Positions 19,816-35,002 of a stretch of 35,002 nt of DNA are shown piece by piece. Origin of the DNA: Spirochaetales bacterium. GTDB taxonomy: Bacteria; Spirochaetota; Spirochaetia; Sphaerochaetales; Sphaerochaetaceae. The stretch covers positions 1-35,002 of the forward strand of contig JAAZAT010000164.1 of assembly GCA_012514185.1 (NCBI GenBank). The letters run 5' to 3'. The translations under genes were made by a program, and so were the position numbers. Position 1 is the stretch's first letter, and each line of letters opens with the position of its first letter. A model generated the notes under the pieces. The model had not been told where the DNA came from. It saw only the letters and a list, made by a program, of their open reading frames with translations, and did no database searches.

Positions 19816-20567
19816 GCCTGTTTGTGCTGTTTGAAGAAGAGGCCCAAACAAACAACAAACGCGGCCAAGGCGAGGCCTGTTGCAACAATGACCATCATGT
19901 ACTGTGATGCAAATCCTTCTTGGGACGTATGCTTGATCAGGATGCCGGTATACGCCCAGATCAGGGTGAACAGGTATGCCTTGTCCTTGGTTCTGAACGC
20001 CCAAGCCAGGCCGATGACAACTCCAACCAACAAGACCACCACCGTCCACACGGGCTCGGGGATTGAGAACCCGGTAAACTGTGCCGAAACAAGCAGTGTG
20101 GTGATATTGGCTATGGTTGCAACAGTGATCCATCCCAGATAGACGCTGAAGGGAATGCGCACCGACCAGAGGAACATGCGGTCTCCCTTCATCGGCTCGA
20201 TCAGGATGTTGATGCGGATCAACAGAACAAGGATGCACAGCATCAACACCACCGAAAGGCCGATCTTGTGGTAGTGCCAACAGAAAATCCAAAGACTGTT
20301 GGCGACAGAGGAGAGGGCGAACAACAAGCCGACTGTGTTTAAAACTTTTTTATCTTTGTTGGTGAACTGATAGAGGGTATGCAAGGCGAGCAGCAGGTAA
20401 ATGAAACCCCAAATCGAGAAGGTGATGCCGGCAGGGGCGAACAGGTTGGGATAAGAGTCGGAGACCGCGCCTGTATTCATGCCTCCGATCGGCAGAATGT
20501 TGGCAAGGGCGTTTACAGCAACCATGACCAGATAACTCAGGGCGACGAGAACGGGAGTGCGCTTCAT
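19812..20567 (-). CDS. TspO/MBR-related tryptophan-rich membrane protein
   Basis: A 251-residue protein with about eight hydrophobic helices. The segment NLFAPAGITFSIWGFIYLLL (41-60) is the hallmark of the tryptophan-rich group distantly related to TspO/MBR; tryptophans recur at helix ends. Ligand and role are unknown; TspO relatives bind porphyrins and respond to oxygen or stress. GGAGG is 4 bp before the ATG. A very good promoter lies 35-65 bp upstream. It heads a probable operon with the polyferredoxin and two c-di-GMP enzymes. Confidence 0.72.
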   Translation of the reverse strand: MKRTPVLVALSYLVMVAVNALANILPIGGMNTGAVSDSYPNLFAPAGITFSIWGFIYLLLALHTLYQFTNKDKKVLNTVGLLFALSSVANSLWIFCWHYHKIGLSVVLMLCILVLLIRINILIEPMKGDRMFLWSVRIPFSVYLGWITVATIANITTLLVSAQFTGFSIPEPVWTVVVLLVGVVIGLAWAFRTKDKAYLFTLIWAYTGILIKHTSQEGFASQYMMVIVATGLALAAFVVCLGLFFKQHKQA

Positions 20568-24115: not shown

Positions 24116-26326
24116 TTACAAGGATTCGTGGAAGGTGCGGTGAATGACGTCAAGCTGTTGTTCGCGGGAAAGCTTGATGAAGTTGACCGCGTACCCGCTG
24201 ACCCTGATAGTCAACTGGGGATACTTCTCCGGATGATCCATGGCATCGAGCAGGGTGCTCTTCTCCATGACGTTCACATTGATATGATGTCCGTTCTGGG
24301 CAAAGTAGCCATCCATGAGGGTTGTCAGGTTCTCCACCTGCATCTCCTTGTTCTTGCCAAGCGTGGAAGGAACAATGGAGAAGGTGTAGCTGATGCCGTC
24401 CTGGGCATACGCATACGGCAATTTCGCCACGCTTTTCATACTGGCGATACAGCCCTTGTGGTCCCGTCCGTGCATGGGGTTTGCTCCCGGTGCGAACGGC
24501 TCGCCCGCCTTTCTTCCGTCGGGAGTCGAACCGGTCTTCTTTCCGTAGACCACATTGCTGGTGATGGTCAGCACCGAAAGGGTGGGGATGCTCTGTCGAT
24601 AGGTGGTATGCTTCTTCATTTTCTGCATGAACGACTTCACCAGCTCCCGGGCGATGGAGTCGACGCGCTCATCGTCGTTGCCATAGGAGGGATAGCTTCC
24701 TTCAATCTCGAAATCGACGGCAAGGCCGCTTTCGTCCCTGATCGGCTTGACCTTGGCATACTTGATGGCTGACAGGCTGTCGGCAACAACACTCAAGCCT
24801 GCGATGCCTCCTGCCATGGTCCTGACTATCTGCTCATCGTGCAAGGCCATCTCCAATCGTTCATAGCTGTATTTATCATGCATGTAATGAATGACGTTCA
24901 GCGTATCGATATAGAGCTTTGCGAGCCAGCTGCTCATCGCTTCAAAGCGATCGGTCACAGTAGCATAGTCCAGGTATTCATCGGTGATGGGAGCCAGCTT
25001 GGGACCGACCTGCTCACCGCTCTTCTCATCGCGGCCGCCGTTGATTGCATAGAGCAAGGTCTTGGCCAGATTGACGCGTGCGCCGAAGAATTGCATCTGC
25101 TTGCCGATCCGCATTGCAGAGACACAGCAGGCAATACCGTAATCGTCACCGTAGTCGGCTCTCATCAAGTCATCGTTCTCATACTGGATCGAGGAGGTTT
25201 CGATCGAGAGCTTCGCACAGTAGTTCTTGAAGGCCTGGGGAAGACTCTGGCTCCACAGTACGGTAAGATTCGGCTCGGGTGCCGGTCCGAGATTGGTCAG
25301 GCTGTGAAGGAACCGGTAGCTCATCTTGGTGACCATGTGCCTTCCATCGAGGCACATGCCTCCGATGGATTCGGTAACCCAGGTCGGATCCCCGCTGAAC
25401 AGCTGGTCGTAGGAGGGTGTCCTGAGGAAGCGGATGATCCTGAGCTTCATGATGAAGTGGTCGACCAGCTCCTGGATTTCCGCCTCACTGAAGGTTCCCT
25501 TCTTCAGGTCCTCTTCAGCATAGATGTCCAGGAAGGTGGAGACGCGACCCAGACTCATGGCCGCTCCGTTCTGTTCCTTGGTCGCTGCAAGGAAGGCGAA
25601 ATACAACCACTGAATGGCCTCCTTGGTGTTCTTGGCAGGATGAGAGATGTCATAGCCGTAGGAGAGAGCCATCTCCTTGAGCTCGGAGAGGGAGCGGATT
25701 TGCTCGCTGAGCTCCTCACGGCCCTGGATGACCGCTTCGGTCATCGCATCAAAGGTGAAGTGCTCCTTTGCACGTTTCTTCTGTTCAATCAGGAAATCGA
25801 CACCGTACAGGGGAACCCTTCGGTAATCGCCGATGATCCGTCCCCGGCCGTAGGCATCGGGAAGCCCGGTGATGATCCCACTGTGGCGGACTTTTTTCAT
25901 CTCGGTGGTGTAGACATCGAACACACCGTCATTGTGCGTCTTCCGGTAGGTGAAGATCTTGTCGATGTCTTCGCCCAGGGTTCTGCCGTAGGCCTGAAGT
26001 TCAGTATGCACCAGCCTGATTCCTCCAAAAGGCATGATGGCACGCTTGAGCGGCTCGTCGGTCTGAAGTCCTACAATCTGTTCAAGATCCCGGTCGATGT
26101 AACCATTCTTGTGGCTGGTGATGGTGGAAATGGTTCTTTCATCGATGTCGTACATGCCGCCGCGCTGGCGTTCGACGGTCAACAGGTCCTTGAGTTTGTC
26201 CCACAGCTGCAGGGTGCGCTCGGTAGGCCCTTGTAAAAAGGATGCGTCCCCGTCATAGGGAGTATAGTGCTCTCCAATGAAAGCTCGTGTGTTGATTTCG
26301 TACGTGCGGTCTTCTCTATCGTCCAT
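24116..26326 (-). CDS. pflB: Formate C-acetyltransferase (pyruvate formate-lyase)
   Basis: A 736-residue glycyl-radical enzyme converting pyruvate and CoA to acetyl-CoA and formate in anaerobic fermentation. The active-site pair is Cys400-Cys401 ([11 protein letters not shown]), and the radical site is Gly711 in RVSGYAVNF, 25 residues from the end as usual. [17 protein letters not shown] is a further signature. ATG 26326 is chosen: AGAGGA is about 6 bp upstream and [17 protein letters not shown] matches where family proteins begin; the 29 codons upstream cover the promoter. Expression is probably switched by the FNR-type regulator encoded divergently, through the palindrome at 26399-26414. 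Confidence 0.97.
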
Positions 26327-26371
26327 GGTGTTTCCTCTTTCACAGGTTTCCCGTATACTTTTCTTGTCTTT

Positions 26372-26377
26372 GATATA
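26372..26377 (-). promoter_or_regulatory. -10 box of the FNR-dependent pflB promoter
   Basis: TATATC on the minus strand (complement of 26372-26377). A start point 7 bp on, near 26365, would be 41.5 bp from the centre of the palindrome at 26399-26414, exactly the class II activation geometry of FNR and CRP. No -35 box is needed or seen. Confidence 0.55.
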
Positions 26378-26398
26378 CCATGTCCGTTCTGTTTCTAC

Positions 26399-26414
26399 TG
26401 TGATTGAAATCACA
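26399..26414. promoter_or_regulatory. Perfect FNR/CRP-type palindrome between pflB and fnr
   Basis: TGTGATTGAAATCACA: six-base arms TGTGAT and ATCACA are perfect inverted repeats around TGAA. The half-site combines the G of the CRP half-site TGTGA with the GAT of the FNR half-site TTGAT. It lies 26 bp before the regulator gene, so autoregulation as well as pflB activation is likely. Confidence 0.8.
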
Positions 26415-26440
26415 AATTGAGTATTTTACTAGGAGATACC

Positions 26441-27160
26441 ATGGAAGTGCCCAATCAGTGTCCGCATTGCACCAACGACCATTGCATACGAAGCGTCCCC
26501 CTCTTTGCTTCCCTGGAGCCTGATGCAGTACACGCCCTTACCGATCAGATGGAGCACAAAAGCTACCAGAAAGGTGAGATATTGGTGAGGGAGGGTGATA
26601 CTGCAACCGGTTTTACCGTCATCAGGCAGGGCAGCGCCAAAGCATACCGAACCAGTGCCGACGGCCGCGAGCAGATTCTCTACATTTTTCCTGCAAATGA
26701 TTACTACGGCGCGCGGTTTCTCTTCACCGAGGAGAAAGTTCCCTACACGGTCGAAGCACTGGAGGAGACTCATGTTTGCATACTCAGCAAGGCCCAATTC
26801 TCCCTGCTGCTGGAGAAGCACAGCTCAATAGCCCTGCAGATCATCGAAGCGATGGCCAATCGGATGAGCAGGCTTGAGACAGCGATGCAGAGCATGGGCG
26901 GAAGGAATGCAGACTTGAGAATTGCCAGTCTGCTGCTCGAGTTCAAGGAACCCTACGGACGATACAATGGATCGCATCTGGAAATAACCCTTCCCTTGAG
27001 CAGGGAAGGATTGGCGAACTACCTCGGTCTTGCCCGTGAGACGCTCAGCCGTAAGCTGGTACAGTTCGAAGAAGAGGGCTTGATCGAGCTCATCGGGCAA
27101 AAAGTGGTGCGCATCCTGGATTTGGAACGTTTGGCCGATCTCTCCGTCCTTGTCGACTAA
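26441..27160 (+). CDS. fnr: FNR-type [4Fe-4S] CRP-family regulator
   Basis: A 239-residue CRP/FNR protein. N-terminal cysteines Cys7, Cys10 and Cys15 (CPHCTNDHC) plus Cys113 (THVCILSK) match the four-cysteine pattern that holds the oxygen-labile [4Fe-4S] cluster of FNR, though the spacing of the first three is C-x2-C-x4-C. The cyclic-nucleotide-type beta roll covers about 20-125, the dimer helix about 127-155, and the helix-turn-helix about 185-215 with RETLSRK as recognition helix. Arg199 preceding the Glu resembles CRP, while Glu200, Ser203 and Arg204 match FNR. AGGAG is 5 bp before ATG 26441. Its stop overlaps the convergent permease stop by 4 bp. Confidence 0.9.
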   Translation: MEVPNQCPHCTNDHCIRSVPLFASLEPDAVHALTDQMEHKSYQKGEILVREGDTATGFTVIRQGSAKAYRTSADGREQILYIFPANDYYGARFLFTEEKVPYTVEALEETHVCILSKAQFSLLLEKHSSIALQIIEAMANRMSRLETAMQSMGGRNADLRIASLLLEFKEPYGRYNGSHLEITLPLSREGLANYLGLARETLSRKLVQFEEEGLIELIGQKVVRILDLERLADLSVLVD

Positions 27161-28933: not shown

Positions 28934-30157
28934 ATGGACGAAAAAAAGATTTCCAAGTTGAAAGAAATCATTGAAAAATTGCATAGCGGGGTCTCCAGTG
29001 ATGCAGTGAAGCAGGAGTTTGAAGCTGAATTCGGCACGGTTAGCGCGGAAGAGTTGGCTGCTGCCGAGCGAAAACTCATGGAAAGCGGGGCTATCAAAGT
29101 CGAGCAGGTCCAAAAGCTTTGTGATGTGCACGCCGCAGTTTTCGGTGACAGTATTGAGGCAATTCATCAAGGCAAGCAAGCCGACAAGACCCCAGGTCAT
29201 CCTGCCTTCGTCTTCATCAAGGAAAACGAGGGGCTGACCAAGTTCCTCGATACCGAGTTCAGCAAGAGTATAGCATCGTACAAGCAGCATCAGAGTGAGG
29301 CAGCCAAAGCGGATTTGCTTGCCTCGTTGAAGAGCTTGAGCAAGTTGGACAAGCACTATGCACGAAAGGAAAACCTCTTCTTCCCGTATATGGAAAAGGC
29401 CGGCATCACGGCTCCTCCGAAGGTCATGTGGGGAGTGGATGATGAGATCCGCGACCTTTGGAAGGCTTGCATCCGAAGCTTGGAGTCGGAAGGTACCGTT
29501 GAAATCGCTTCCTTGGACAAGCTGGATGAGCAGGTACGCAGCATGATCAACAAGGAGAACAACATCCTTATGCCAATGCTCAGCGGTGTGATGGATGGCG
29601 ATTCCTGGCTGACGGTAGCCCGCGACAGTGCCGACATCGGATACTGTTTCAACGGAGGCATCGAAGGAGCGAGCCCATCTGACGCCCTGACCTGGTATCG
29701 ATGGAATGCAAGCATGAGCGGCAAAGAAGACTTTGCGCCCAAGCAGGAGGCAAGCGGCGAGATTGTACTGCCCAGCGGCCACCTGAACCTGGAGGAGCTT
29801 ACTTGGATGCTCAACACGCTTCCTGGTGATGTGACATTCGTGGGGGCCGATGACAAGGTACGGTACTTCAGCGAAGGCAAGGATCGTGTGTTCCCGCGCA
29901 CCCGCAGCATCGTTGGACGAGAGGTTGCCCATTGCCATCCGCCCAAGAGCCTGGCTGTTGTAGAGAAGCTGGTTGAGGATTTCAAAGCTGGTCTGAAGGA
30001 CAGTGAATCGTTCTGGATCCAGAAAGGCACCCAGTTCATCCTGATCCGCTACTTTGCAGTCCGCAACGAGAAGCAGGAGTATCTGGGGGTGGTGGAAGTG
30101 ACGGAAGAAATTTCCGCCCTGAGGAGTCTGGAGGGTCAGAAGACCCTGCTCAGCTGA
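28934..30157 (+). CDS. DUF438 protein with hemerythrin-like and PAS domains
   Basis: A 407-residue cytoplasmic protein. Residues about 1-70 are the DUF438 helical region, about 85-220 a hemerythrin-like four-helix bundle, and about 285-400 a PAS domain. Likely metal ligands include His89 (PGHPAF), His141 and Glu146 (HYARKENLFFP) and Glu208 (NKENNILMPM). Where I would expect a histidine after MWG-x the sequence has Asp (MWGVDDEIR, 165-173), which may alter the metal site. Family members are thought to sense oxygen, NO or redox state through non-haem iron and a PAS cofactor. AAGGAG is 5 bp before the ATG. Promoter element shared with the CBS gene. Confidence 0.85.
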   Translation: MDEKKISKLKEIIEKLHSGVSSDAVKQEFEAEFGTVSAEELAAAERKLMESGAIKVEQVQKLCDVHAAVFGDSIEAIHQGKQADKTPGHPAFVFIKENEGLTKFLDTEFSKSIASYKQHQSEAAKADLLASLKSLSKLDKHYARKENLFFPYMEKAGITAPPKVMWGVDDEIRDLWKACIRSLESEGTVEIASLDKLDEQVRSMINKENNILMPMLSGVMDGDSWLTVARDSADIGYCFNGGIEGASPSDALTWYRWNASMSGKEDFAPKQEASGEIVLPSGHLNLEELTWMLNTLPGDVTFVGADDKVRYFSEGKDRVFPRTRSIVGREVAHCHPPKSLAVVEKLVEDFKAGLKDSESFWIQKGTQFILIRYFAVRNEKQEYLGVVEVTEEISALRSLEGQKTLLS

Positions 30158-30165
30158 CCGACCAG

Positions 30166-30203
30166 AGGGCTGTAGGAGTGCTTATTGCTCTTCTTGCAGC
30201 CCT
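30166..30203. repeat. Inverted repeat between convergent gene ends
   Basis: AGGGCTG (30166-30172) and CAGCCCT (30197-30203) could pair around a 24-base loop, covering the stop of the minus-strand 94-residue gene. It may help terminate both convergent transcripts, but there is no clear U-tract. Confidence 0.3.
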
Positions 30204-30466
30204 TGCTCTTTCTTGAGCTGGTTGATGAATGCCAGGTAGGCGTAGATTTGCCCTTGGATTTCTGCATTTTTCAACACACCCCTGCCACCCCAATCCTGAC
30301 CTTCATAGATGGTAAGGTGATGCAGCTCTCCTTCGAGATCAATGAGTTTCTGAGGTGTGATTCTCTGCCTCGTCCTGAGATAGAGCAGGGTGGTATCATA
30401 CGCCTCATGGAAAGCATGCTGCTCTCCTGTAATATCCGAATCGTGATCATTCATTCGTGTGTTCAT
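30182..30466 (-). CDS. Hypothetical 94-aa protein, last gene of the NDH operon
   Basis: Not recognised. Soluble, hydrophilic and probably helical, with no signal peptide, membrane helix or cysteine. It contains HAFHEAYDTTLLYLRTRQR and a Gly-rich DWGGRGVLKNAE stretch near the middle. AGGAAGG is 4 bp before ATG 30466. It starts 9 bp after the polyprenyl synthase gene, so it is very probably co-expressed with the NDH-2/quinone-tail genes. Confidence 0.65.
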   Translation of the reverse strand: MNTRMNDHDSDITGEQHAFHEAYDTTLLYLRTRQRITPQKLIDLEGELHHLTIYEGQDWGGRGVLKNAEIQGQIYAYLAFINQLKKEQGLQEEQ

Positions 30467-30474
30467 GCACCTTC

Positions 30475-31461
30475 CTATACAGAGCGCTTCGATAGTTTGG
30501 CAAAGAGATTGCCAAGCTGTCTCTCAACCTGCGGATGCCCAAGACGCTTCATATCGGAAAGAGCCCGCATCTTGTATGATTCTGCAAGAATTCGGGCTTT
30601 TTGTACACCACCCAATGAGTCAACCAAACGCAGCGCCTCGTCGACGGTTTTCTGTTTCAGAGGAGTTTTTAAGTTTTGCAACAAATCCCGTAAGACAGTG
30701 GTTCCATCCATCTGTTCCTGTTCCAAGGCATACAAAAGAGGCAGGGTGGGGATGCCGCACTTCAGGTCATTGCCTGTGTTCTTGCCGAGCTTGGAAGCGC
30801 TTCCTGCATAATCGAGAATATCGTCTTGGATCTGGAAGGCCATTCCCATGCAGTATCCGATTCTATGACACAGCAACAGTTTTTGCGGTTCGGCTTCCTG
30901 CAAGGCAACGCCCGCATAACAGCTGAGGGCGAACAGGCTGGCTGTCTTGCCCGCAATGCGGCGCAGGTAGGTGTGTCGAGAGATGAAGAAATCCCCTTGG
31001 CCTGCATCCTGTTCAAGCTCACTTTCACACAACCGCGAGAGGGCGGCGGAGATTACTCTGCTATCCATGCCCCGCTCTTTGCCGCTGGTCAACAGCAGGG
31101 CTTTCGCCAATAGGAAGTCACCGGCCAGTACAGCCTGCTTGGCTCCGAGTTTTGCATAGATGGTGGATTTTCCCCTGCGTGTGGCGGCAGAGTCGATGAT
31201 GTCATCATGAACCAAAGAAGCCAGATGGATCAGTTCAATGACCGATCCGACCCTGATGGCATCTTCAGTGACGGAGTGTTCGCCAAGTGCGCTGGTGATC
31301 ATGACAAGCGCGGGTCGAAGCATTTTCCCCACCGATTGCACATGTTCGAGCAAAATCGGGCGGATGAAGGTGTGAGCAGTGGCCACCGTGTTCTCGATGG
31401 TCCTGCTCACTTGGAGAAGATGTTCTTTGAGTTCCTGTTCATCGTTCCAGAAATCGGTCAT
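30475..31461 (-). CDS. Long-chain polyprenyl diphosphate synthase
   Basis: A 328-residue trans-prenyl synthase extending isopentenyl units, most likely for the side chain of a (demethyl)menaquinone. GKMLRP (45-50) binds the substrate; the first Asp-rich motif is DDIID (86-90) followed by RRG, the second DDILD (213-217). The residues four and five before the first motif are Ser82 and Ala81, with no bulky aromatic stop, which fits a long-chain product; the length is an inference. It lies 6 bp after the NDH-2 gene, whose stop is inside its ribosome site, indicating coupling. In flavin-based electron transfer loci the comparable gene is dmkB. Confidence 0.9.
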   Translation of the reverse strand: MTDFWNDEQELKEHLLQVSRTIENTVATAHTFIRPILLEHVQSVGKMLRPALVMITSALGEHSVTEDAIRVGSVIELIHLASLVHDDIIDSAATRRGKSTIYAKLGAKQAVLAGDFLLAKALLLTSGKERGMDSRVISAALSRLCESELEQDAGQGDFFISRHTYLRRIAGKTASLFALSCYAGVALQEAEPQKLLLCHRIGYCMGMAFQIQDDILDYAGSASKLGKNTGNDLKCGIPTLPLLYALEQEQMDGTTVLRDLLQNLKTPLKQKTVDEALRLVDSLGGVQKARILAESYKMRALSDMKRLGHPQVERQLGNLFAKLSKRSV

Positions 31462-31467
31462 GCCTTC

Positions 31468-33585
31468 CTACTTTTTCCCCAACTTTCGTTCCATCTGTCG
31501 CTTGGTGAACTCGGGTTCATCGAGATAGAAGTAGGTTTTCTTGGCGAGCGGAGTCTTGTTCCACAATTTCTTCAGGTAGGGCATCACCCAGTAATCGAGA
31601 CCGAAGGCCTTGCCGGCTCCTCCGAGCATGACAATCGAGACGGCCATGTACCAAAGGATTTCCTTGCCTGCCAACGCTCCGATGAGGAACATGACCGACA
31701 GTCCCAGCGACACGATGGCGGCGGGGAAGGTGAACAGACCTGCAAAGAGTGCGAGCCCGATGCCGACTTCTGCCAGTACGATCATCAGCTGGAACAGATA
31801 GGGAGCCTGCGCTACGAAGGTGTCGTTGATCCAGGTGAAGATCGCCAAAGGCTGGGAGAGCAAAGGAGGTGCGAACTGCTCGACTACACCGCTTTCAGCT
31901 ATCGATTGACTGACCGATGCAACGGTATCAACCACCGTTTGGCTTGCACTAGCGGCGGTATCCACCACCCACTGGGTAGCGGAGGATGTCGCTTCGATCG
32001 CCGGCTGGCTTGCGGATGCCACCGCCTGTACGGCAGGCTGGCTGGCCGAGGCTACAGCCTGTGGTCCAACAGTCTGGCTGACCGCAGCTACAGTATCGGC
32101 AACCGCCTGGCTGGCTGATGCGACCGTTTCGGCAACACTCTGGCTGGCAGAAGCCCATGCATCGGCGACGGTGGTTGCAGGACTGCCCCAGTAGACTTTG
32201 CTTCCGGTGGTATCGGTGAGCCAGCCCTTCTGGATCTTCCCGACGCCTTCAATGAACCACATCACGCCCAAAAACATTCGAAGGAAGGTGGTCCAGTAGG
32301 AGGGAACCTTGTAGACGGCCAGACCGCCGATCAGGGAGCGTCCGTGTTTTATTTCCAAGATTTCGTGCTTGATGTACGCCCAAGCACCGTTTATTCCGCA
32401 TACTCCGCTCTGGTAATAGATGTTTACCAGATGTTTGAGGGCCATGGCAAAGAAGCCGGAGAGGGACAAGCCGGCAGTATGACTGACTGCATACCTTCCG
32501 CCGATGGAGACCATGAAGCCGTGGAAGTTCGACTTGAACGGCTTGGGATGCTCGGCTTTCAGACCGAGTTCAGTCTTGACTGCATAGATGACGCCGTCGG
32601 CGGCTGTTTTGGCGGTTTGCTCTGCGGCTTCCACTATTTGGGGAACGGCCTTGTTGTTTTCCAAGAACCACATGCCGTCTCCGACAAGATAGACATTTTG
32701 GTAGTCAGGGCTCTGCATGTACTCATTGACGAGTTTCCTGCCGATCTTGCCGTCGGTAAGCGGAAGCTTCTCGCAAAATTCTGTGCCGCGGACGCCGCAG
32801 GTCCAGACCAGGGTCTTGGTTTTGATCACTTCACCGTTTTTGGTGGTGAATCCCTCAGCATCGACCTGGGTGATCAGGGAGTTGAGCTTGATCTCAACAC
32901 CTTTCTTCTCCAAATACTTGACTGCCTTTGCCCTGGGCTTCTCAGGAAGCATGTTCAGGATGCTTCCCAACGCCTCGGCGCTGATGAGCCTGCCTTCCTT
33001 CTTGAAGTCAATGCCGTTCTCCTTGCAGAGAATCGGCAGCCATTCAATCAATTCTCCCACCAGCTCGATGCCGGTGAACCCACCGCCGGCAACGACGAAG
33101 GTAAGCATCTGCCTGCGCTTCTCGGCATCGGCTTCACGACTGGCATCCTTGACGACCTGCTCAATATGGCAACGGATGCGAAGTGCATCGTCGAGGCTCC
33201 ACAGGTAAAAGGCATGCTCCTTGACACCGGGGATGTTGAAGTCTGCCGTTGTGGCCCCGGTTCCGATGATCAGTTGGTCGTATGCATAGCTGGCACGCTC
33301 ACCCTTGAGGTGCTGGTCCTTGAAATCGATGTCTACGATGGTATCCTGTACGACATTGACCATTTTGCCGGAGAAAATTCGGTCGAAGGAAATCTTCACT
33401 GAATCCTCTTCGACTCGGTTGCCGGCAACTTCATGCAGCTCAGTCATGAGAATGTGGTGGCGGTTCTTGTCGATCAAGGTTATTTCAACCTTGTCTTGAT
33501 GCTTCTTGAATGCTTTGTGCAAGGTTTTTGCAGCGTGTACTCCGGCGTATCCCCCGCCTAATACCACAATCTGTTTCTTGTCCAT
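31468..33585 (-). CDS. ndh: Type II NADH dehydrogenase fused to DoxX-like membrane domain with 11-residue repeats
   Basis: A 705-residue flavoprotein passing electrons from NADH to quinone without proton pumping. FAD-binding GGGYAG (10-15), NADH-binding AGGGFTGIE (166-174) and YLVGDGM (299-305) define an NDH-2 of about 425 residues. A C-terminal membrane domain follows: helix about 433-450 (FLRMFLGVMWFIEGVGK), then three helices at about 597-617, 619-638 and 643-660, together DoxX-like, and a basic tail. Between the first two helices, residues 478-566 are eight 11-residue repeats of consensus ASASQxVxxTV. Topology with both ends inside puts the repeats outside the membrane. AAGGAAGG is 4 bp before the ATG. 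First gene of an operon with the polyprenyl synthase and the 94-residue protein. Confidence 0.92.
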   Translation of the reverse strand: MDKKQIVVLGGGYAGVHAAKTLHKAFKKHQDKVEITLIDKNRHHILMTELHEVAGNRVEEDSVKISFDRIFSGKMVNVVQDTIVDIDFKDQHLKGERASYAYDQLIIGTGATTADFNIPGVKEHAFYLWSLDDALRIRCHIEQVVKDASREADAEKRRQMLTFVVAGGGFTGIELVGELIEWLPILCKENGIDFKKEGRLISAEALGSILNMLPEKPRAKAVKYLEKKGVEIKLNSLITQVDAEGFTTKNGEVIKTKTLVWTCGVRGTEFCEKLPLTDGKIGRKLVNEYMQSPDYQNVYLVGDGMWFLENNKAVPQIVEAAEQTAKTAADGVIYAVKTELGLKAEHPKPFKSNFHGFMVSIGGRYAVSHTAGLSLSGFFAMALKHLVNIYYQSGVCGINGAWAYIKHEILEIKHGRSLIGGLAVYKVPSYWTTFLRMFLGVMWFIEGVGKIQKGWLTDTTGSKVYWGSPATTVADAWASASQSVAETVASASQAVADTVAAVSQTVGPQAVASASQPAVQAVASASQPAIEATSSATQWVVDTAASASQTVVDTVASVSQSIAESGVVEQFAPPLLSQPLAIFTWINDTFVAQAPYLFQLMIVLAEVGIGLALFAGLFTFPAAIVSLGLSVMFLIGALAGKEILWYMAVSIVMLGGAGKAFGLDYWVMPYLKKLWNKTPLAKKTYFYLDEPEFTKRQMERKLGKK
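31888..32154 (-). repeat. 33-bp periodic coding repeat (eight 11-residue units) in ndh
   Basis: Eight in-frame units, each 33 bp (one is 36 bp), encode variants of ASASQxVxxTV at residues 478-566. Units such as ASASQSVAETV, ASASQAVADTV, ASASQPAVQAV and ASASQTVVDTV differ in both protein and DNA sequence, so the array is old enough to have diverged. Hendecad spacing suggests a long amphipathic helix or right-handed coiled coil. Confidence 0.9.
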
Positions 33586-33625
33586 GGTTCCTTCCTTGGT
33601 TGACCCCCCGTTGAAAAGGGTTTGC

Positions 33626-33654
33626 TATATAGTAAACTTGGTATAGCGATGCAA
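33626..33654 (-). promoter_or_regulatory. Sigma-70-type promoter of the ndh operon
   Basis: On the minus strand TTGCAT (complement of 33649-33654) and TATATA (33626-33631) are exactly 17 bp apart. The leader would be about 34 nt. Confidence 0.7.
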
Positions 33655-33721
33655 CAAGGTTCTTTATGGATGTACAGTCACGGAACCTTACTGCGTTGGC
33701 AGAAAAACACTCTAGCACAGA

Positions 33722-33732
33722 AGTAGGAATTT
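33722..33732 (+). promoter_or_regulatory. Core of the shared promoter element, copy 3
   Basis: AGTAGGAATTT, identical over 11 bases to the elements at 28284-28294 and 28906-28916 and in the same orientation. The upstream dyad and -10-like part are missing here, and no gene starts within 300 bp, so significance is less certain. Confidence 0.4.
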
Positions 33733-33820
33733 ATGCAATTGTGTCATTTTTTATCGAATATAGTTTTTCATATTTTTTACAATAACACCATACTGTCTGT
33801 GTGAAAAAATCAAATAAATG

Positions 33821-33868
33821 TCGATAGGGAACAAATTATGAGAAAAATATGAGAAAAAATTCTATCGA
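33821..33868. repeat. Inverted repeat enclosing a tandem 11-bp repeat
   Basis: TCGATAG (33821-33827) and CTATCGA (33862-33868) are perfect inverted arms. Between them TATGAGAAAAA occurs twice in exact tandem (33837-33858). It could be a regulator-binding cluster or a hairpin. Confidence 0.55.
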
Positions 33869-33985
33869 TATTTTTATATCTAAGTAAAACAATCGGATTA
33901 CTTCGCTATGGAACTCTTTACAACATAATTACTTATCAAGAGTATTTCGTTATTGCTACTAGGTATTGATAATTTTAGGACGATA

Positions 33986-34015
33986 TTGCAAAAGTGTAAC
34001 AGTTCTGTATATGAT
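33986..34015 (+). promoter_or_regulatory. Promoter of the flavolipoprotein gene
   Basis: TTGCAA (33986-33991) and TATGAT (34010-34015) are 18 bp apart; an overlapping TATATG gives 16 bp. The leader would be about 34 nt, with AGGAG (34042-34046) 9 bp before the ATG. Confidence 0.6.
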
Positions 34016-34055
34016 TATATCTACAAACGTTGAATTTACCTAGGAGTTAATGATC

Positions 34056-35002
34056 ATGAGAAAGAACGTGTTGGCTGTACTCTCAGCCGTTGTTTTGATC
34101 TCTCTGTTCGTCTTCACCGGCTGCTCCAAGTCTGAAGCGAAAACCGCAACCCCGGCCCCTGCTGCAGCTCCTGCTGCCGCTGCTCCGGCCCCCGCCGCAC
34201 CAGCTCCGGCTGCTCCAGCCGCTGTGGCTCCCGTAGCTGCAAAGTATGCCGATGGCATCTATTTTGCCGCCGATGATGCGTTCGCCTCTTCTGGCTGGAA
34301 GGAAACCGTCACCTTGACCGTCTCCGGTGGGAAGATTGTCAATGCAGACTGGAACGCAGTAAACGTAGCCGGTGGTGCTGACAAGAAGACCTACGACAAG
34401 GCTGGAAAGTACAACATGGTCAAGTTCGGAAAAGCCCAGGCCGAGTGGTACCAGCAGGCAGAGAGAGCCGAAGCATACCTGCTCAAGACCCAGGATCCTG
34501 CAGCGATCAGCTACAAGGACAGTGAAGGCCACACCGATGACATCGCCGGAGTCTCAGTCCATGTGAATGCGTTCTTTGAACTTGCAGCAAAGGCTCTTGC
34601 AGCCGGTCCTGTCGGCCGCGGTCCGTATGCCGATGGTGCTTACTTTGCAATCGATGCTGCCTACCCCTCCTCGGGTTGGAAGGAATACGTCTCCTTGACC
34701 GTTCTCAACGGCCGCATTGCAGCTGTCAACTGGAGTGCAGTAAACCGGAACGGGGATGACAAGAAGGCCTACGACAAGGCCGGAAAGTACAACATGGTGA
34801 AGTTCGGCAAGGCTCAGGACGAGTGGTATGTACAGGCTCAGAAGACTGAGGACTACCTGCTCAAGACCCAAGACATCAATGCCATCACCTACAAGGATGA
34901 GGCCGGTCATACCGACGACATCGCAGGGGTCTCCGTACACGTAAACTCCCTCTTTGATCTTGTCAAGAAGGCCCTGGACAACGGTCCTGTCGGACTCGGT
35001 CC
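34056..35002 (+). CDS. Lipoprotein with tandem FMN-binding-type domains, PplA-like (3' truncated)
   Basis: An open frame running from ATG 34056 to the window end without a stop, at least 315 residues. The signal peptide ends in the lipobox FTGC (Cys23). An Ala/Pro linker (about 30-63) is followed by two 127-residue domains (from about residues 64 and 191) resembling the FMN-binding domain of pheromone-precursor/PplA lipoproteins. Each has YADGxYF, a SSGWKE strand, DKKxYDKAGKYNMVKFGKA and TDDIAGVSVHVN. The last motif parallels the ApbE flavinylation site DxxTGAT, with Ser in the acceptor position but Val for Ala. Probably surface-exposed and a carrier of covalent FMN; this needs an ApbE enzyme, not seen here. 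Divergent from the ndh operon. Alternatively a non-flavinylated immunogen-type lipoprotein. Confidence 0.82.
   Translation, partial: MRKNVLAVLSAVVLISLFVFTGCSKSEAKTATPAPAAAPAAAAPAPAAPAPAAPAAVAPVAAKYADGIYFAADDAFASSGWKETVTLTVSGGKIVNADWNAVNVAGGADKKTYDKAGKYNMVKFGKAQAEWYQQAERAEAYLLKTQDPAAISYKDSEGHTDDIAGVSVHVNAFFELAAKALAAGPVGRGPYADGAYFAIDAAYPSSGWKEYVSLTVLNGRIAAVNWSAVNRNGDDKKAYDKAGKYNMVKFGKAQDEWYVQAQKTEDYLLKTQDINAITYKDEAGHTDDIAGVSVHVNSLFDLVKKALDNGPVGLG
34245..35002 (+). repeat. Tandem 381-bp coding repeat in the flavolipoprotein gene
   Basis: Unit 1 spans 34245-34625 and unit 2 starts at 34626; the window ends just before unit 2 would close. Parts are nearly identical in DNA, for example the stretch encoding DKKxYDKAGKYNMVKFGKA. 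Unit 2 ends with GPVGLGP as unit 1 ends with GPVGRGP, so a third unit may follow. Confidence 0.88.

Follow-up and report, generated by a model that had tools for sequence, protein, structure and literature searches.

Introduction

Flavin-based electron export (FLEET) is encoded in Listeria monocytogenes by the locus fmnA-dmkA-fmnB-pplA-ndh2-eetAB-dmkB (PMC7005843), and it has also been reported in Lactiplantibacillus plantarum, a quinone auxotroph (PMC10746273). An earlier genomic proposal of flavin-based extracellular electron transfer (EET) outside Gram-positives, the NUO-DMK-EET-FMN scheme, concerns Ca. Effluviviacota (PMC11323493). A survey of all phyla used a rule of Ndh2 plus flavinylation; its main text, the part covered here, does not name Spirochaet*, and its figures and supplementary tables may list such clusters (PMC8238504). 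Judged by titles and the starts of abstracts, none of the matches listed in a literature search reported flavin-based EET genes in spirochaetes; two papers, PMC8921683 and PMC6896113, contain terms for both subjects. Here we describe a locus at the end of a 35,002-bp stretch of DNA (the window), which is the entire contig C7 of a draft genome, where a type II NADH dehydrogenase (Ndh2), a predicted long-chain polyprenyl diphosphate synthase resembling DmkB and a putative multi-flavin lipoprotein resembling PplA are encoded together. We propose, with a probability of roughly 0.7, that this locus is a reduced, split, diderm variant of FLEET in a spirochaete.

The draft genome to which the window belongs (its own genome below) comprises 2.76 Mb in 315 contigs and is 85.9% complete with 3.8% contamination. 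Because close homologues come from Sphaerochaeta and other Sphaerochaetaceae, the host is by homology a spirochaete, which bears out the diderm, probably spirochaetal host claimed in an earlier reading of the DNA letters alone (the sequence-only reading). The observations below concern gene presence, homology, synteny, motifs and predicted fold.

Results

The lipoprotein resembles PplA in motif, predicted fold and gene context

The pplA-like gene (34050..35002, forward strand) runs off the end of the contig before a stop codon is reached, so that its 5' 317 codons are present. They encode a lipobox (FTGC, with the Cys25 codon at 34122), an Ala/Pro-rich linker and two complete repeats of about 126 amino acids (aa) each. 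In most relatives the protein is about 440 aa long and has three repeats, the third being visible in relatives only. Both complete window repeats carry DDIAGVS at the putative flavinylation site (34536..34556, with the acceptor Ser codon at 34554, and 34914..34934, with the acceptor Ser codon at 34932). Motifs of the form Dxx[ASTG]G[AV][ST], one per repeat, are found in all 20 homologues collected: three in 16 of them and two in the other four (L026, the Treponema homologues L027 and L028, and the Fusibacter homologue L029). Written out, the repeat motif is D-x-[IFV]-[ASTG]-G-[VA]-[ST], in which the acceptor is Ser or Thr in every listed motif and the preceding Val/Ala varies. Among the 16 homologues with three repeats, seven have GAT in the third repeat and three have SGAT there (L014, L019 and L020).

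When the family profile was compared with solved domains, it matched 2KZX (1.2e-52) and 3O6U (1.2e-5). The acceptor residue lined up in the two alignments, and the family motif was aligned with the GAT of the FMN (flavin mononucleotide)-binding protein 3O6U. The predicted structure of the L010 homologue (433 aa; predicted local distance difference test (pLDDT) score 85.9) had these same two entries as its sole structural matches at E <=0.001; its match to SaFMN3 domain 2 was weak (rank 50, E 0.36). For two covalent-FMN domains, 3O6U is reported to be the nearest homologue by structure (PMC10339131), and covalent FMN is documented for relatives of 2KZX and 3O6U, not for these two entries themselves. 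In addition, L085, a homologue from a cluster of the same genes (36% identity over one stretch), passes the PF04205 cut-off with 34.2 bits and scores 4.8e-39 and 134 bits against the NCBIfam PplA model NF041941, still under the cut-off of that model. By motif, predicted fold and synteny, the lipoprotein is PplA-like, and its family has the modelled fold of an FMN-binding domain and a matching acceptor position. The tandem FMN-binding-type domains proposed in the sequence-only reading are supported to this extent, by motif, fold and L085; the window protein itself misses PF04205, an outcome that this reading had listed as refuting.

Several observations weigh against our proposal. The acceptor in both window repeats is the Ser of GVS and not part of the canonical SGAT, and no match to PF04205 (Pfam FMN_bind) was obtained for the window lipoprotein, the full-length L049 relative or the Fusibacter homologue. 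Against NF041941 the window protein reached 5.4e-17 and 61.9 bits, far under the 325-bit cut-off, and the L049 relative 93.7 bits. Since both cut-offs are missed, the window lipoprotein is not assignable to either model. The departure from SGAT and the PF04205 result would fit repeats that are not flavinylated, in which the Ser-containing GVS is a relic and the domains have a structural or binding role. However, the acceptor Ser or Thr is kept throughout while its Val/Ala neighbour varies, some third repeats have GAT or even SGAT, relatives link the gene to ApbE, and Ser can replace Thr at a flavinylation acceptor (PMC8906456). We consider the absence of flavinylation improbable and favour PplA-like repeats that would carry FMN. 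An even domain count is common in proteins with several of the larger FMN-bind2 domains (PMC10979944), so three repeats would be unusual if this is the subtype.

A further point against our proposal comes from the two Treponema homologues, which have two repeats and a signal-peptide-like start with no lipobox, and which are probably soluble periplasmic proteins. They are consistent with an explanation that overlaps our own, in which the multi-flavin carrier PplA works in the periplasm, where it supplies reductases or detoxifies oxidants, with no export from the cell. The diderm host agrees with such an end point, and no outer-membrane conduit gene was recognised in the open reading frame (ORF) lists of the loci, which were inspected by eye and not systematically. 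On the other hand, most Sphaerochaetaceae homologues retain the lipobox together with a long tether that is often Ala/Pro-rich, and inspection by eye showed no conserved gene for a reductase next to the cluster. We give a purely periplasmic role a little under an even chance; our own proposal allows for either a periplasmic or an extracellular end point.

Three relatives encode an extra lipoprotein of 266-273 aa with an Ala/Pro-rich linker just upstream of PplA (L019:9031-9849, L020:9028-9849 and L023:8946-9746). It carries a motif of the form Dxx[ST]GA[ST], which is D-A-T-T-G-A-S in L019 and L020 and D-E-T-T-G-A-S in L023, and the L023 copy matched no Pfam family over the cut-off. Its sequence makes it a candidate for a new flavinylated protein.

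Ndh2 has a C-terminal membrane region and is coupled to a DmkB-like synthase

The ndh2 gene (31468..33585, reverse strand) encodes a protein of 705 aa with a C-terminal DoxX/DoxD-like membrane region and an A/S/T/V-rich insert. It matches Pyr_redox_2 (8.6e-38, Pfam), and the DoxX and DoxD matches at its C-terminus are both under their Pfam cut-offs. Solved NDH-2 chains in the PDB align with residues 1-398 at most, leaving the C-terminal membrane region outside every match. The NDH-2 of the Firmicute Fusibacter bizertensis does match over this C-terminal part; hydropathy shows one long hydrophobic stretch in the window protein (594-643) and three in the Fusibacter protein. The low-complexity insert, at residues about 468-570 (about 100 residues), lies ahead of the last hydrophobic stretch and is present in 14/14 aligned Ndh2 sequences, with a length of 29-103 residues. 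Taken together, homology and hydropathy indicate a type II NADH dehydrogenase with a predicted C-terminal transmembrane domain. The structure model of Ndh2 was too poor for use (mean pLDDT 55.8). The sequence-only reading had named clustering with ordinary aerobic respiratory enzymes as a refuting result. Ndh2 scored 428 bits against an EetAB/DmkB-linked Firmicute Ndh2 and 201 bits against the best solved NDH-2, values that come from different programs and not from a tree.

Separated from ndh2 by a gap of 6 bp (31462-31467) is the synthase gene (30475..31461, reverse strand), whose 328-aa product matches PF00348 (2.4e-59). Against the NCBIfam model for heptaprenyl diphosphate synthase component II it reached 1.1e-61, under the cut-off. 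We assign it as the counterpart of the polyprenyl diphosphate synthase DmkB from the PF00348 match and its coupling to ndh2, with no equivalog cut-off reached. The NDH-2, the synthase at a 6-bp gap, the divergent lipoprotein and a 94-residue ORF described in the sequence-only reading are all present at their positions.

The gene set recurs in relatives and co-occurs across the phylum

The gene order recurs in relatives. In loci that hold Ndh2, identities over the best segment are 61-95% for Ndh2, 49-87% for the synthase and 49-92% for the lipoprotein. Ndh2 is encoded close by in 14 of the 20 lipoprotein homologue loci, and a whole-genome search of seven genomes, including all six whose locus lacks it, found Ndh2 in 7/7, so that all 20 genomes behind these loci encode it. 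Ten of these 14 loci have genes for ApbE, an unassigned membrane protein, EetB and EetA between those for Ndh2 and PplA (the long form: L014, L016-L021, L023, L024 and L026). The families were identified by Pfam for the L016 set (ApbE, PF02424, 8e-94; EetB, PF07456, 5e-34; EetA, PF07009, 2e-19) and by tblastn for the other long-form genes. The short form, with none of these three in between, is found in the window and in L010-L013, L049, L050 and L053. The counterparts of Ndh2, DmkB and PplA claimed at the outset hold up as homologues, and relatives join all three to ApbE, EetB and EetA.

The divergent ndh2-pplA pairing is kept in both forms. Other arrangements also keep the genes together: PplA is on the same strand as Ndh2 in L085, and in G042 PplA, a UbiA of the DHNA (1,4-dihydroxy-2-naphthoic acid)-prenyltransferase type, DmkB and Ndh2 form a single cluster in which two gene pairs converge. 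Downstream of PplA in L012 and L014 lie UbiD, an MqnP-like UbiA and UbiX (families determined from L014 only). Fusibacter has Ndh2-EetA-EetB-DmkB in one row, with PplA beside ApbE on another contig. Several G-labelled loci are the same contigs as loci of the 20-homologue set, so locus counts are not independent.

In a sample of 296 genomes of the phylum, the own genome included, the lipoprotein was found in 14, Ndh2 in 19 and both in 13 (lipoprotein E <=1e-15, Ndh2 E <=1e-60, with the top 6 and 3 first-look candidates of each genome scored). Ndh2 is present in 13/14 lipoprotein genomes vs 6/282 others (Fisher p 2e-17, uncorrected for relatedness). Two results from the sample count against our proposal: G308 has the lipoprotein without this Ndh2, and six genomes have Ndh2 without the lipoprotein. 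So does the presence of NQR- and RNF-type subunits in the own genome (nqrF and rnfD models over cut-off). These complexes and the six genomes would suit an ordinary quinone respiratory module of Ndh2 and DmkB, serving for example an NQR-type complex, with the lipoprotein as an unrelated neighbour, as would the 6-bp coupling, which involves Ndh2 and DmkB only. Against such a module stand the co-occurrence of lipoprotein and Ndh2, a divergent pairing conserved in both forms together with reordered clusters that still hold the genes, and an Ndh2 membrane region outside every solved NDH-2 match. We regard an ordinary module as very improbable, and retain a dedicated electron export locus as the best one.

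ApbE and a DmkA-like UbiA are encoded elsewhere in the genome

The sequence-only reading had noted no DmkA, ApbE or EetAB counterparts in the window. An ApbE fragment and a DmkA-like UbiA were found elsewhere in the genome; EetAB was not found in the draft. The own genome has one ApbE copy at C271 and a truncated one at the start of C223. The C223 fragment shares 62% identity with the ApbE of the L014 cluster vs 40% with C271; by sequence it is an FmnB-type ApbE, whose adjacency to ndh2 and pplA is seen in relatives only. While absence of an ApbE homologue from the genome would have told against the proposal, its presence alone proves nothing about electron export, because NQR- and RNF-type complexes also need ApbE, and NQR also needs quinone.

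The failure to find EetA and EetB counts against our proposal, weakly so in a draft that is 85.9% complete. Both are encoded away from the locus in G005 and G018, the nearest complete genomes (lipoprotein homologues 95% and 94%), and we infer an EetB in the own genome. EetAB was found in 54 of the 60 genomes searched, the own genome being one of the 60; several of the 54 have no strong PplA match, and among 14 control genomes Thermotoga maritima and Lactococcus lactis also gave a match. EetAB is therefore not specific to this system, which is a further point against the proposal. EetB is reported to bind FAD (flavin adenine dinucleotide) and, together with FmnA, to export it so that flavinylation can proceed; cleanly deleting eetA gave no EET phenotype (PMC9973259). 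For these reasons we take EetAB as flavin supply, and by analogy EetB is more plausibly a subunit of an FAD exporter than a carrier of electrons.

The EetB of G005 and G018 carries a further domain, a relative of the unassigned membrane protein. The fusion of EetB and this membrane domain is found at L078:5888-7024 and L079:6073-7215; in other genera the domain is a separate 207-aa protein. No FmnA (ECF-T) could be identified in a search that covered the 207-aa membrane protein beside EetB, again unfavourably for the proposal: neither Pfam, run on 10 homologues, nor a profile comparison with one EcfT-like ORF gave an ECF-T match, and its assignment as FmnA is no more than a guess. At another site in the own genome (L056:6188-8951), a small FMN_bind protein is encoded with uncharacterised membrane-protein-like neighbours.

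The single UbiA of the own genome, at C233, has the DHNA polyprenyltransferase (PRK06080-type) model as its best match (2.3e-53, under the cut-off), and its homologue in G042 adjoins PplA, DmkB and Ndh2. The DmkA-like UbiA is encoded with a TAXI solute-binding protein, a small protein and a fused TRAP permease in the same order in the own genome (L096:6671-11224) and in G005 (L097:7584-12146), with the neighbour families determined on the own-genome copy only. This TAXI-TRAP transporter is a possible importer of a quinone precursor.

The quinone head group may be scavenged

MqnA/D (PF02621) had no match in the own genome. Matches to PF02621 in 11 of the 60 genomes, 9 over the cut-off (best E 1.3e-12, 24-48 bits, frames of 331-570 aa), are tentatively read as related binding proteins. 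MenD likewise had no above-cut-off match in the own genome and was over the cut-off in one of the 60 (G043). Matches to the MenD model under or over the cut-off occurred in 50/60 genomes, own included, and we tentatively read most of them as acetolactate-synthase-type enzymes; in the control set, 14/14 genomes had matches, over the cut-off in 7. The absence of an MqnA/D match and of an above-cut-off MenD match in the own genome suggests that the head group is scavenged and own synthesis lacking, with MenD and MqnA/D as the only markers (MenB/C/E/F and other Mqn proteins were not searched).

Neighbouring genes and the intergenic region

The third gene in the row (30182..30466, reverse strand), 8 bp from the synthase gene, encodes a conserved 94-aa protein that matched no Pfam or NCBIfam family. 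Its ratio of nonsynonymous to synonymous substitution rates (dN/dS) was 0.06-0.10 against three relatives (dS 1.1-2.6; a fourth comparison was saturated), so it looks like a real gene under purifying selection. It adjoins the synthase gene in many relatives and was not found in L016, L018, L024 and L102 at the sensitivity used.

The 464 bp that separate the divergently oriented ndh2 and pplA (33586..34049) are a presumed promoter region. Promoter-like sites numbered 5 vs 3.1 expected, not clearly above chance. A scan for FNR boxes with <=2 mismatches gave 27 matches vs 19 expected, the lone exact one lying at 20209-20222, distant from the locus.

Conserved beside the short-form locus are genes for a DUF438-hemerythrin-PAS protein (28934-30157 of the window), possibly an oxygen or nitric oxide sensor, and for a Crp/Fnr-family regulator (26417-27160). 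Adjoining the regulator gene, 24116-26413 looks like a glycyl-radical enzyme gene, a name given from reading the sequence alone.

Discussion

By analogy with Listeria, Ndh2 would oxidise NADH at the cytoplasmic membrane and reduce a demethylmenaquinone-like quinone. The DmkB-like synthase would supply the prenyl tail of this quinone, and the DmkA-like UbiA, whose gene lies elsewhere, would attach it. The reduced quinone would then donate to the lipoprotein PplA, probably at or near the C-terminal membrane region of Ndh2. In PplA, FMN would be esterified to the Ser or Thr of D-x-x-[A/S]-G-[V/A]-[S/T] in each of the usually three repeats, attached by the FmnB-type ApbE using FAD exported by EetB. 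With its Ala/Pro-rich tether, PplA could contact acceptors located either in the periplasm or on the cell surface.

If this is correct, the range of flavin-based electron export with a dedicated Ndh2 includes spirochaetes, where it has to function across two membranes, and a modified form of a pathway known chiefly from Gram-positives may run in these bacteria. Sphaerochaeta would gain a concrete, testable route to discharge electrons; its 16S sequences have been reported in electrode-reactor communities, mainly in the planktonic fraction (PMC13374861). The core of Ndh2, prenyl synthase and multi-flavin protein would be set apart from components whose genes can relocate to other genomic sites, and dependence on neighbours for quinone would be suggested. 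More speculatively, and on balance doubtfully, Sphaerochaeta and its relatives might carry out a diderm flavin-wire respiration with no quinone head group of their own, in which Ndh2 feeds a quinone built from scavenged DHNA or a similar acid and a tethered three-flavin PplA, in some species together with the TTGAS-motif lipoprotein, links the periplasm with the cell surface. These fermenters would then be partners in community electron exchange.

Compared with Listeria FLEET, the spirochaete locus has in common an Ndh2 with a C-terminal membrane region, a DmkB-like synthase and a lipoprotein with multiple FMN-bind-type repeats, and in relatives of the window locus ApbE, EetA and EetB are contiguous with these. 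It differs in its diderm host, in the divergence of pplA from ndh2 and, in the genus Sphaerochaeta, in the placement of ApbE, EetAB and DmkA away from the locus; the own genome also lacks a MenD over cut-off and an MqnA/D match. Listeria PplA has two repeats and two FMN sites (PMC8906456), whereas the spirochaete family usually has three FMN-type repeats. L. plantarum is Gram-positive and, unlike the window host, has a cell wall but lacks an outer membrane. Its FLEET is nevertheless alike in Ndh2, PplA, prenylation genes and the lack of own head-group synthesis, the last judged here from the MenD and MqnA/D markers (PMC10746273). The scheme for Ca. Effluviviacota is entered via complex I (Nuo), whereas here a true Ndh2 adjoins PplA (PMC11323493). 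Proteins with three or four tandem FMN domains and the motif DxxxGAT are alike in their tandem FMN-type domains, with a weak fold match; the spirochaete repeats are larger, nearer to 2KZX and 3O6U, and their acceptor is mostly Ser.

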